29,763 nt of DNA from positions 1-29,763 of the IMG/VR virus record IMGVR_UViG_3300042390_000185. One strand, written 5' to 3'. A program made the position numbers and the translations under genes. Position 1 is the first letter of the stretch; each line of letters opens with the position of its first letter. Below the pieces are notes generated by a model that was not told the origin of the DNA, did no database searches, and saw only the letters and a list, made by a program, of their open reading frames with translations. This document shows, piece after piece, positions 301-3,199 of this stretch. This stretch comes from a virus.

Positions 301-2370
301 CTATCTTACTGCATAATGCCCCACATTTGGTCTGCTAAAGGTCATCATACAAGCGTATCTTGATGCATCGATTCCATGGTTAAAGGCATCTATTGGTTTA
401 TTTAATACTTTGCCATTCTTGTCCTCGATGTATTTGTAATTTCTAAACTCCTTGATTAAGTTAATGCTTCGGCTTGTTATTACCAATTTATACCTCCTCA
501 TTATATCTATGCCCATATTAATGGAATCTGCTCCCTTGATGACTGGACGTACATTAAAGCCCATACGATGAATCTCTTCAATACTCTTAGGCTCACTACT
601 ATCTGCCCATATTAAGTCTCTCCTATCAAGTTGTAGGTCCTTTAATCTATTGGCAATATCCTGATTGGTCATACCCGTTTGGAATATTAACTCATCAAGA
701 TATATTGTATCTCCCAAATGATACATGGCAATTAATGATGTTGGGTCTTGCGAGTATCCAAAGTCCATTCCATATGCTTTTAATTTTGCCTCATCAGGAA
801 TTGAGTTAATAGATGAATGGCTAAATACAAGGCTTCTCGATTGTCCTCTCTCTCCAAGTCCATATATCTTCCAATACTCAGCATCTATTAGTTTTAATCT
901 TTCAATCTCCTTTATGATGTTGTCATCGAGAAATGGATTGTCGTTATATGTGGTTACAAAGAAATCGCAGTCTTCCCTTGGGATTATCTTATCATAAATG
1001 AAATGGAACTCATCCGATGGGTTATAGTCAAGTATAGCTTTCTCAGTAGTCCTTAAAATTAGCTGCTGCCAATCTTCATAATATAACTCGTTTGCCTCGT
1101 TAATATATAGGATGGCTCTTTTTCTGCCTCGGACTTTTTGTGGTTGGTCCAACGAGATAAATTCAAATAGGTTTCCCTCCAGCTGATATTCTGAATTGGA
1201 TTTGTTATGGTCATCCTCATTGTAAATTCCATGCTCCTTGAGAATATCAAAGAAATCCCTCATTGATGATGCTCTAAGAGATGGATAGGTTTTTCTGCAA
1301 ATAGTTATAGTCTTGCCCGTATTGTTGAATGCATAGCCAAATATTAACCACATCAGAATGTTATAAGTTTTCCCAGAGTTATGAGAAATTATATTCTTAT
1401 CAGTTATTAGATAGCTATGTGTATCTTTTACTTCAATATCATAAATATCCTCTAATGTTTCGTGAAAAATTATTTGCTTTATTTCGCTAATATCTAAACA
1501 ATGTGCACCCAACTCCTCTTCAACAATATATCCTTTATAGTTGATGTCTTCACACCATACTTTTCTGCCAAATGCTTCATCATTACAATCCTTGGAATAT
1601 ATTCTTTCTTGATTTTCCTTACTATATCCTCGTCCAATTTTGCCATTCCATTCTTTGAGCCATTGTTCATCGCTTGTCTTCCTTGTTGTAACATATGGTC
1701 CATGTTCTCTCTGTGAGTTACCCATTCCAAGTTTTCTGCTCGGTTGTCTGCTCGGTTGTTGTTTAGATGATTTACTTGTGGTTTTTGATTGCGATTTTTG
1801 ACAAAATAAGTTGCTACTAATCTGTGAATTTTTATTGTAGAAGTTTTCCCATTGATTGCAATCATCGTCCTTAAATAACCATTCATATCTAATGCTGGTT
1901 TCATTATCCTTACTGCATCCACTCCTTTTTTGTTTTTGTACTTCATTGTCAATATTCTTCCAAGACTTGATATATAATACATCTGATTTGTGCCATCTAT
2001 CGCTTTCCAACATTCTGTTGGCAATGTCAATTGATTTAACATATCCATTTGAAGTGTATAATTTGTGTTCATCGGTACAAGTAATATTTGTTTCATCTAA
2101 AAGAACAAAAGTAATACTTTTTTGGTTATGTTGCCCAACCTTGTATATAAACTTATTAATAACTGGCTTTTTAACAATATTGCATTTTTCATCCATTGAC
2201 CAAACTATATCTCCTATATTAATATCCTTAATAGGCTTATAATGGTCTATGCAATTAATTAACGTATCGCCAACTAAACAACGAGTGCCTCCTTGCTCAA
2301 CTATTATCCTCTTATTGGATGTAGCCAAATGCTCAAATACTACATTAGTTCTTATCTTGGTTGCTTCCAA
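301..2370 (-). CDS. terL: Terminase large subunit interrupted by an intein
   Basis: This is the ATP-driven DNA packaging motor and headful/cos nuclease. The 689-residue precursor holds exteins of 30 and 358 residues, so the spliced TerL would be 388 aa. Walker A is reconstituted from GGTR (27-30) and SGKT (332-335). A Walker B-like AILYINEANEL is at 419-429. RNase H-like nuclease motifs are YGMDFGYS (D536), IWADSSEP (D590) and DAFNHGIDASRY (D661, H665, D668). The start is taken as TTG at 2370: a TAG lies three codons upstream in frame and no ATG precedes the P-loop. The start overlaps the terS stop by 26 bp, suggesting translational coupling. The intein and a nested out-of-frame endonuclease gene are listed separately. 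Family assignment is firm; the exact start is less certain. Confidence 0.95.
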   Translation of the reverse strand: MEATKIRTNVVFEHLATSNKRIIVEQGGTRCLVGDTLINCIDHYKPIKDINIGDIVWSMDEKCNIVKKPVINKFIYKVGQHNQKSITFVLLDETNITCTDEHKLYTSNGYVKSIDIANRMLESDRWHKSDVLYIKSWKNIDNEVQKQKRSGCSKDNETSIRYEWLFKDDDCNQWENFYNKNSQISSNLFCQKSQSKTTSKSSKQQPSRQPSRKLGMGNSQREHGPYVTTRKTSDEQWLKEWNGKIGRGYSKENQERIYSKDCNDEAFGRKVWCEDINYKGYIVEEELGAHCLDISEIKQIIFHETLEDIYDIEVKDTHSYLITDKNIISHNSGKTYNILMWLIFGYAFNNTGKTITICRKTYPSLRASSMRDFFDILKEHGIYNEDDHNKSNSEYQLEGNLFEFISLDQPQKVRGRKRAILYINEANELYYEDWQQLILRTTEKAILDYNPSDEFHFIYDKIIPREDCDFFVTTYNDNPFLDDNIIKEIERLKLIDAEYWKIYGLGERGQSRSLVFSHSSINSIPDEAKLKAYGMDFGYSQDPTSLIAMYHLGDTIYLDELIFQTGMTNQDIANRLKDLQLDRRDLIWADSSEPKSIEEIHRMGFNVRPVIKGADSINMGIDIMRRYKLVITSRSINLIKEFRNYKYIEDKNGKVLNKPIDAFNHGIDASRYACMMTFSRPNVGHYAVR
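1378..2280 (-). other. Intein in the TerL P-loop (301 residues)
   Basis: The element is a self-splicing protein that would excise itself and ligate the TerL exteins. It starts at Cys31 (block A, CLVGDTLI). Block B is ITCTDEHKLYTSNGYV with the TxxH pattern at T99-H102. Block F is DIYDIEVKDTHSYLI near 308-322. It ends with His330-Asn331 followed by Ser332 as the +1 extein residue. All residues expected for class 1 splicing are present. The central 160 or so residues, read in this frame, are polar and rich in K, S, Q and N and resemble no endonuclease. They are the shifted translation of the nested HNH gene at 1494-2096. No DOD (LAGLIDADG) motif is seen in the intein frame. Confidence 0.93.
1494..2096 (-). 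CDS. NUMOD4/HNH homing endonuclease nested out of frame inside the intein
   Basis: This 200-aa protein is encoded wholly within the intein DNA, one nucleotide out of phase with terL. It shows a NUMOD4-like segment at 30-48 (WKAIDGTNQMYYISSLGRI), an HNH_3-like core (IHRLVATYF at 90-98, VNHLNNNRADNRAENLEWVT at 108-127) and a C-terminal helix-turn-helix-like part (LAEKYGVKTSTIKDILLKRSW, about 176-196). It would cut an intein-free terL allele and spread the intein. The frame has a TAG directly before the ATG (TAGATG) and its own stop at 1494-1496, so it cannot be reached by read-through in its own frame. M17 or M19 are alternative starts closer to the usual NUMOD4 N-terminus. Protein identity is clear; its translation as a separate protein is inferred. 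Confidence 0.88.
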   Translation of the reverse strand: MKQILLVPMNTNYTLQMDMLNQLTLPTECWKAIDGTNQMYYISSLGRILTMKYKNKKGVDAVRIMKPALDMNGYLRTMIAINGKTSTIKIHRLVATYFVKNRNQKPQVNHLNNNRADNRAENLEWVTHRENMDHMLQQGRQAMNNGSKNGMAKLDEDIVRKIKKEYIPRIVMMKHLAEKYGVKTSTIKDILLKRSWVHIV

Positions 2371-2907: not shown

Positions 2908-3159
2908 TTATTGTGTCAAGTTTGTTAAGTGCTTTGTTTTTAACATATCCATGTGTTGAGATTTGTCTCCATATTCTAAGTGGCATTTTCTGCATAGTGC
3001 CATTAGGTTTTCTATTGTGTCATTCTTCTTAGTTCCTCCCATACCTCTTGCCTCTATGTGATGGATATCTACTGCTTTAGTTCCACACATTTCGCATCCA
3101 ATGAAATCTGATACATCGTAGCTAAAATAATCCATATAGATTTTCGTGTGTCCTTTCAT
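2908..3159 (-). CDS. HNH endonuclease
   Basis: This 83-aa protein carries a classical HNH fold: CEMCGTKAVDIHHIEARGMGG followed by NLMALCRKCHLEYGD. The two CxxC pairs would bind structural zinc and the DIHH histidines form the catalytic centre. Small HNH proteins beside terminase genes, such as HK97 gp74, assist packaging-linked DNA cleavage, which fits this location just before terS and terL. The start is the ATG at 3159; the longer frame begins with TTG at 3171 inside the -7 box. It is unrelated to the NUMOD4-type HNH nested in the intein. Confidence 0.9.
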   Translation of the reverse strand: MKGHTKIYMDYFSYDVSDFIGCEMCGTKAVDIHHIEARGMGGTKKNDTIENLMALCRKCHLEYGDKSQHMDMLKTKHLTNLTQ

Positions 3160-3168
3160 TCTATTTTT

Positions 3169-3199
3169 CAAATATACAATATTATAACTTAGTATTAAA
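3169..3199 (-). promoter_or_regulatory. Possible promoter before the HNH-terS-terL genes
   Basis: On the minus strand TATATTTG (3176-3169) matches TAnnTTTG exactly, with a weak TTTA 19 bp upstream. The HNH ATG is only 9 bp below the box, so the leader would be very short. The weak -33 element lowers confidence. Confidence 0.45.

Follow-up and report, generated by a model that had tools for sequence, protein, structure and literature searches.

A phage terminase intein with a predicted separate HNH endonuclease in an overlapping reading frame

Introduction

In bifunctional inteins such as PI-SceI, the homing endonuclease is normally in frame and forms part of the excised protein. NUMOD4/HNH homing endonucleases of the I-HmuI type are carried by phage group I introns. 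Fractured genes, in which a free-standing endonuclease lies between the halves of a split intein, were reportedly described by Dassa et al. in 2009. Split inteins with an endonuclease between the halves are cited as known in PMC10448857. Inteins in the P-loop of the large terminase subunit (TerL) of mycobacteriophages splice and cut (PMC5050341). Among published cases, the closest is the ShiLan insertion (2025), which has an HNH out of frame but no intein. The ShiLan domain and the Pacc40 insertion both lie in DNA methylases of phages and comprise an out-of-frame HNH (Arsenault, Gosselin and Gogarten 2025, PMC11855218). These authors detected neither splicing motifs of inteins nor a fold resembling one, and proposed that the inserted segment remains part of the protein (PMC11855218). 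For overlapping frames, the same paper cites a preprint on non-canonical actinobacteriophage inteins (Gosselin et al. 2025) and Gorbalenya 1998. The general idea of out-of-frame endonucleases in inteins may already be described in Gosselin et al. 2025. Our literature search for prior out-of-frame endonuclease cases yielded the ShiLan line of work alone, with Gosselin 2025 and Gorbalenya 1998 lying outside the comparison.

The DNA analysed here (hereafter the window, 29,763 nucleotides) was positions 1-29,763 of the phage record IMGVR_UViG_3300042390_000185 in IMG/VR. Its TerL very probably harbours a mobile intein, inserted in the Walker A loop, with two predicted products from overlapping frames, a Hint intein and a separate HNH endonuclease. 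As in ShiLan and Pacc40, the HNH occupies a different frame of a stop-free insertion that reads through in the frame of the host gene and has a homing-like distribution; unlike there, a Hint domain whose splicing residues are invariant is encoded in the host frame. With the bifunctional mycobacteriophage inteins it shares a TerL P-loop position and a homing endonuclease, but theirs is in frame and excised with the intein, whereas that of the window would be a separate product of the other frame. Fractured genes, too, encode the endonuclease apart from the splicing protein, a layout shared by three relatives described below; in contrast, the window intein is contiguous, would splice in cis and holds the HNH wholly nested. 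The likeness to I-HmuI concerns fold and domain order, and the difference the carrier, an intein instead of an RNA intron.

Results

The large genes of the window were mostly located on the minus strand, as was the TerL ORF at 301-2370 (689 aa, from the ORF list and profiles). Terminase profiles began at residue 329, and Hint and Intein_splicing matched between residues 30 and 331; TIGR01547, TIGR01443 and TIGR01445 concurred with the Pfam placement. The ORF and the empty-site relatives placed the N-extein at 2281-2370 (minus, 30 codons), ending with ..EQGGTR in the Walker A loop. The C-extein at 301-1377 (minus) began with SGKTY.. and comprised the ATPase and the RNase H-like nuclease (Pfam Terminase_3 and Terminase_3C, TIGR01547; PHROG terminase large subunit). 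The insertion site between EQGGTR and SGKTY was thus inside the Walker A loop. The intein itself covered 1378-2280 (minus, 301 codons, TerL codons 31-331) and ran from C1 to ..IISHN301, followed by the +1 Ser. All residues of a class 1 cis-splicing intein were present: the N-terminal Cys, the block B His, the penultimate His, the C-terminal Asn and the +1 Ser. Its halves were contiguous in one ORF, as opposed to those of a split (fractured) intein. The first-pass annotation had read a complete intein from Cys31 to His330-Asn331 before Ser332, and profiles, motifs and the relatives with empty sites confirmed these borders.

In the AlphaFold model of the intein frame (mean pLDDT 54.9), residues 1-93 and 257-301 were predicted to be ordered and the residues between them disordered. 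The values were about 78-89 for residues 1-90 and below 50 over residues 94-256. The N-terminal splicing part accordingly lay at 2002-2280, the C-terminal part (YDIEV..H, IISHN) at 1378-1512 and the 163-residue linker, which overlaps the HNH gene, at 1513-2001 (all minus). Foldseek matched the ordered part to the solved inteins NpuDnaB, gp41-1 and NpuDnaE, placing it in the Hint fold. Motifs and models together supported the assignment as a predicted cis-splicing Hint intein.

Within the intein DNA, a second frame in phase +1 relative to TerL was open from 2096 (1494-2096, 200 codons) to a TAG stop at 1494-1496. Its product matched NUMOD4 and HNH_3 in Pfam and had the conserved HNH-motif residues of I-HmuI-like HNH homing endonucleases. 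These residues were invariant in the alignment of nested and non-nested relatives. AlphaFold predicted the protein with a mean pLDDT of 88, and the top and only strong Foldseek match of the model was I-HmuI (1u3e, E 5.9e-9). Near TerL, a further short ORF on the minus strand (2908-3171) showed an HNH-like motif (CEMCG..HHIEARG..CRKCH); judging from the motif, it is perhaps a packaging-associated HNH nuclease.

Three other contigs (L002-L004) carried the same insert in identical or nearly identical form, and an assembly error was therefore dismissed. Intein-free TerL homologues, which the first-pass annotation had suggested seeking, were found in three phages with approximately 93% DNA identity (L005-L007); their TerL lacked exactly the 301 codons. 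The HNH proteins were 39-54% identical between TerLs that were just 17-25% identical. TerL identity and HNH identity were correlated (0.77), so that horizontal spread was not cleanly separable from old vertical descent. The empty sites and the recurrence of the HNH family in distant TerLs suggest that the element is mobile.

A scan with the window HNH detected the same nested layout in a diverged phage (L085), with 61% identity in the HNH and 41% in the intein frame. A 9-nt gap between the two sequences inside the overlap preserved both frames. Scanning with a two-row HNH alignment yielded 80 loci. Beyond the window's own copies, the HNH was located within a longer ORF in 27 contigs including L085, in phase +1 every time, and the outer ORF was a TerL whose intein occupied the same site. 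Identity among these TerLs went down to about 20%. A separate scan used the intein sequence instead of the HNH and yielded 50 loci; apart from the window's own copies, 31 of them matched contiguously over the full length. The HNH was out of frame in the same phase in 31/31; neither an in-frame HNH nor an HNH-less intein was present among these matches. The combined set held 30 distinct inteins, which fell into 22 clusters at 90% identity; all were at the same TerL site and open in both frames. Phase +1 in 30/30 meant that the endonuclease was never in frame with the splicing domain, as it is in bifunctional inteins. C1, the block B His and the C-terminal His-Asn were invariant in a 20-member alignment, and intein/Hint profiles matched 20/20 nested members. 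A scan of the genome_contigs set with the HNH alignment returned no relative. One copy (L236, 915-3038) appeared to be decaying: the N-terminal half of its HNH (1237-1656) was shortened while the intein frame was still open.

The survey also bore on the HNH start. Within block B, taken as C-T-x-x-H plus the residues just after, an HNH-frame ATG was present in 24 of the 30 inteins and spanned the codon junction before or after the His; no such ATG was found in the other six (L135, L220, L227 and L229-L231). Six members (L085, L117, L121-L123 and L125) had an HNH-frame stop 9 nt ahead of the conserved ATG, and free-standing HNH relatives started with MNYTL at the aligned place. Because of this common start, the stops and the MNYTL starts, translation of the window HNH probably begins at the ATG at 2070-2072, inside the block B codons (C-T-D-E-H, 2065-2079, minus), and not at 2096. 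The gene would then comprise 1494-2072 (minus, 192 aa). Inspection by eye showed no ribosome-binding site for the HNH. The earlier proposal of an HNH within the intein DNA, shifted by one nucleotide, stood, while its start at 2096 and its length of 200 aa gave way to 2072 and 192 aa.

Intein-frame stops were absent from 20 nested copies and averaged 21.9 (range 12-30) in 41 HNH relatives outside the layout; these counts and the substitution tests cover the HNH family of the Walker A site. There was likewise no intein-frame stop in any of the 30 distinct inteins. When the window HNH was recoded with the phage's own codon usage, a mean of 18.5 intein-frame stops arose and 0/2000 trials were stop-free. 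Seven nested HNHs recoded with the window codon usage showed means of 18-22 stops, again with zero stops in 0/2000 trials each. The open intein frame over the HNH is more than chance. Recoding of the HNHs could bring the stops down to 0 in the intein frame, compared with a floor of 3-9 in the third frame. A phase +1 stop requires an HNH codon NNT before AA, AG or GA, and since NNT always has the synonym NNC, the intein frame can always be cleared synonymously. In the window HNH, no codon before AA, AG or GA ended in T. In the splicing parts that flank the overlap, pairwise substitutions peaked at the third position of intein codons, and within the overlap at the third position of HNH codons, which is intein position 1. 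Because related pairs were pooled, these tallies by position describe a pattern and are not a formal test. HNH identity exceeded intein-frame identity in 189/190 pairs. Both frames show signs of maintenance by selection.

The same HNH family was also present in other layouts. In L136 (2583-4862), L140 (2574-4856) and L146 (2625-4874), an ORF for the TerL N-terminus and N-intein was followed by the HNH and then by an ORF for the C-intein and TerL C-terminus. The HNH overlapped both flanking ORFs in the same +1 phase at both junctions. As the two intein halves occupy different ORFs here, again at the Walker A site, these three are likely natural split inteins. Free-standing HNH genes were located directly upstream of an intein-free TerL in L128-L134, L138, L141 and L144. 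A leftover TerL N-terminus (..QLLYGGAAG..) preceded the HNH and the intact TerL in L128, L129, L131 and L138. It broke off at the Walker A position used by the inteins, as though the insertion had provided the gene with a new 5' end and so restored it. In the midpoint-rooted HNH tree, the upstream copies grouped with the nested L137 with strong support, inside a larger group of nested and upstream copies. This topology fits an escape of the upstream copies from an intein, a putative direction under midpoint rooting. In L151, L156 and L161, an HNH was found beside a TerL ORF without its N-terminus, and Rfam detected no intron there. At gathering score, neither an RNA intron nor any other Rfam family matched in seven loci, and carriage of the non-nested HNH copies by group I introns was therefore unsupported by this test. 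The recurrence of the family at one TerL site is consistent with an enzyme that would cut the intein-free allele there.

Out-of-frame endonucleases were not restricted to this site. A second TerL intein site, in the nuclease domain, harboured an out-of-frame HNH_3 protein in phase +2 (L102, 3222-3866; L105, 1841-2467; L116, 4901-5446; L154, 5198-5935; also L190, L191, L192 and L193), including the GenBank records Highwayman (Acinetobacter phage), TJE1 (Tetrasphaera phage), LS06-2018-MD07 and MT838676. L116 and L154 had an out-of-frame HNH in each of the two inteins of a single TerL. Helicase inteins of Vibrio phage K391 and Corynebacterium phage phi673 held an out-of-frame DUF559 (restriction-nuclease-like) protein (L196, 2254-3042; L198, 2248-2892). 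Each nested ORF of the second site and the helicases was wholly within the outer ORF. Phase +1 as the sole possible phase was dropped: second-site inteins use the other phase and their HNHs also allow zero stops there, which limits the phase rule to the HNH family of the window. Five GenBank HNH matches that seemed nested by feature names were not nested by annotation (the dUTPase case by feature table only).

Discussion

The comparative evidence supports the first-pass proposal that one stretch of DNA would encode a separate endonuclease and, in the other frame, the linker of a splicing intein. A TerL precursor would be made, from which the intein would splice itself out and restore EQGGTR-SGKT. 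The HNH would be translated independently by internal initiation and, in a co-infecting phage whose terL has no intein, could cut that gene at the Walker A site, after which repair of the cut terL would copy in the whole element. Such an element likely originated from a mini-intein that acquired an HNH gene out of frame, with synonymous changes keeping the intein frame open.

By a different route, ribosomes translating the TerL/intein frame would undergo programmed frameshifting into the HNH, so that a Hint-N-HNH fusion would be made and no free HNH. The two frames lie head to tail on one mRNA, and the lack of a visible HNH ribosome-binding site would suit this route. However, the HNH-frame stop 9 nt before the ATG in six members leaves almost no room for a shift, and the ATG is at the same place in 24/30 inteins, where free-standing relatives also begin; frameshifting is therefore unlikely. 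Sequencing or assembly frameshifts that moved an ordinary in-frame HNH out of frame have a negligible probability. The first-pass annotation had named indels near the endonuclease borders and relatives with an in-frame HNH as grounds for rejecting the layout. Neither was borne out: the same sequence is present in other contigs, 30 distinct inteins share one phase, the 9-nt gap relative to L085 keeps both frames, and all full-length relatives are out of frame. The artefact was refuted by these relatives, and the layout stands.

Two further readings deny a function to one of the frames. If the intein were inactive or the open TerL frame incidental, the insertion would remain part of TerL, in line with the proposal for the ShiLan domain. 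The unusual, predicted disordered linker would agree with this, but an insertion kept in the Walker A loop would disrupt the essential terminase ATPase. The invariant splicing residues, the predicted Hint fold and the profile matches in 20/20 members also speak against retention, which is very unlikely. Marginally less likely still is an HNH that is a decaying remnant, with the intein frame alone mattering. Decay does occur, as the shortened HNH of L236 illustrates; nevertheless, substitutions in the overlap follow HNH codons, the HNH is the better conserved product in nearly all pairs and its motif residues are conserved. A Hint intein with a separate, maintained HNH remains the preferred reading.

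A wider interpretation is put forward tentatively, with slightly more doubt than belief. Out-of-frame nesting in contiguous inteins might be a widespread, selected phage architecture, covering at least two TerL sites and helicases with NUMOD4-HNH, zinc-finger HNH and DUF559 proteins. Such nesting might be a missing link that connects bifunctional with naturally split inteins, because one stop and a restart would give the split layout, which is seen in relatives with the same HNH family and phase; the HNH could also leave and become free-standing.

Textbook inteins join endonuclease and splicing in one polypeptide; here, one DNA stretch would give rise to two proteins. If this is true, the dose, timing and decay of the endonuclease would be separable from the splicing of an essential gene. 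The use of one frame has a codon-level explanation in the phase rule. Annotation pipelines may report the long ORF only and overlook the endonuclease. Nested, split and free-standing relatives with one HNH family would provide a testable route to split inteins and to carrier switching of homing genes.
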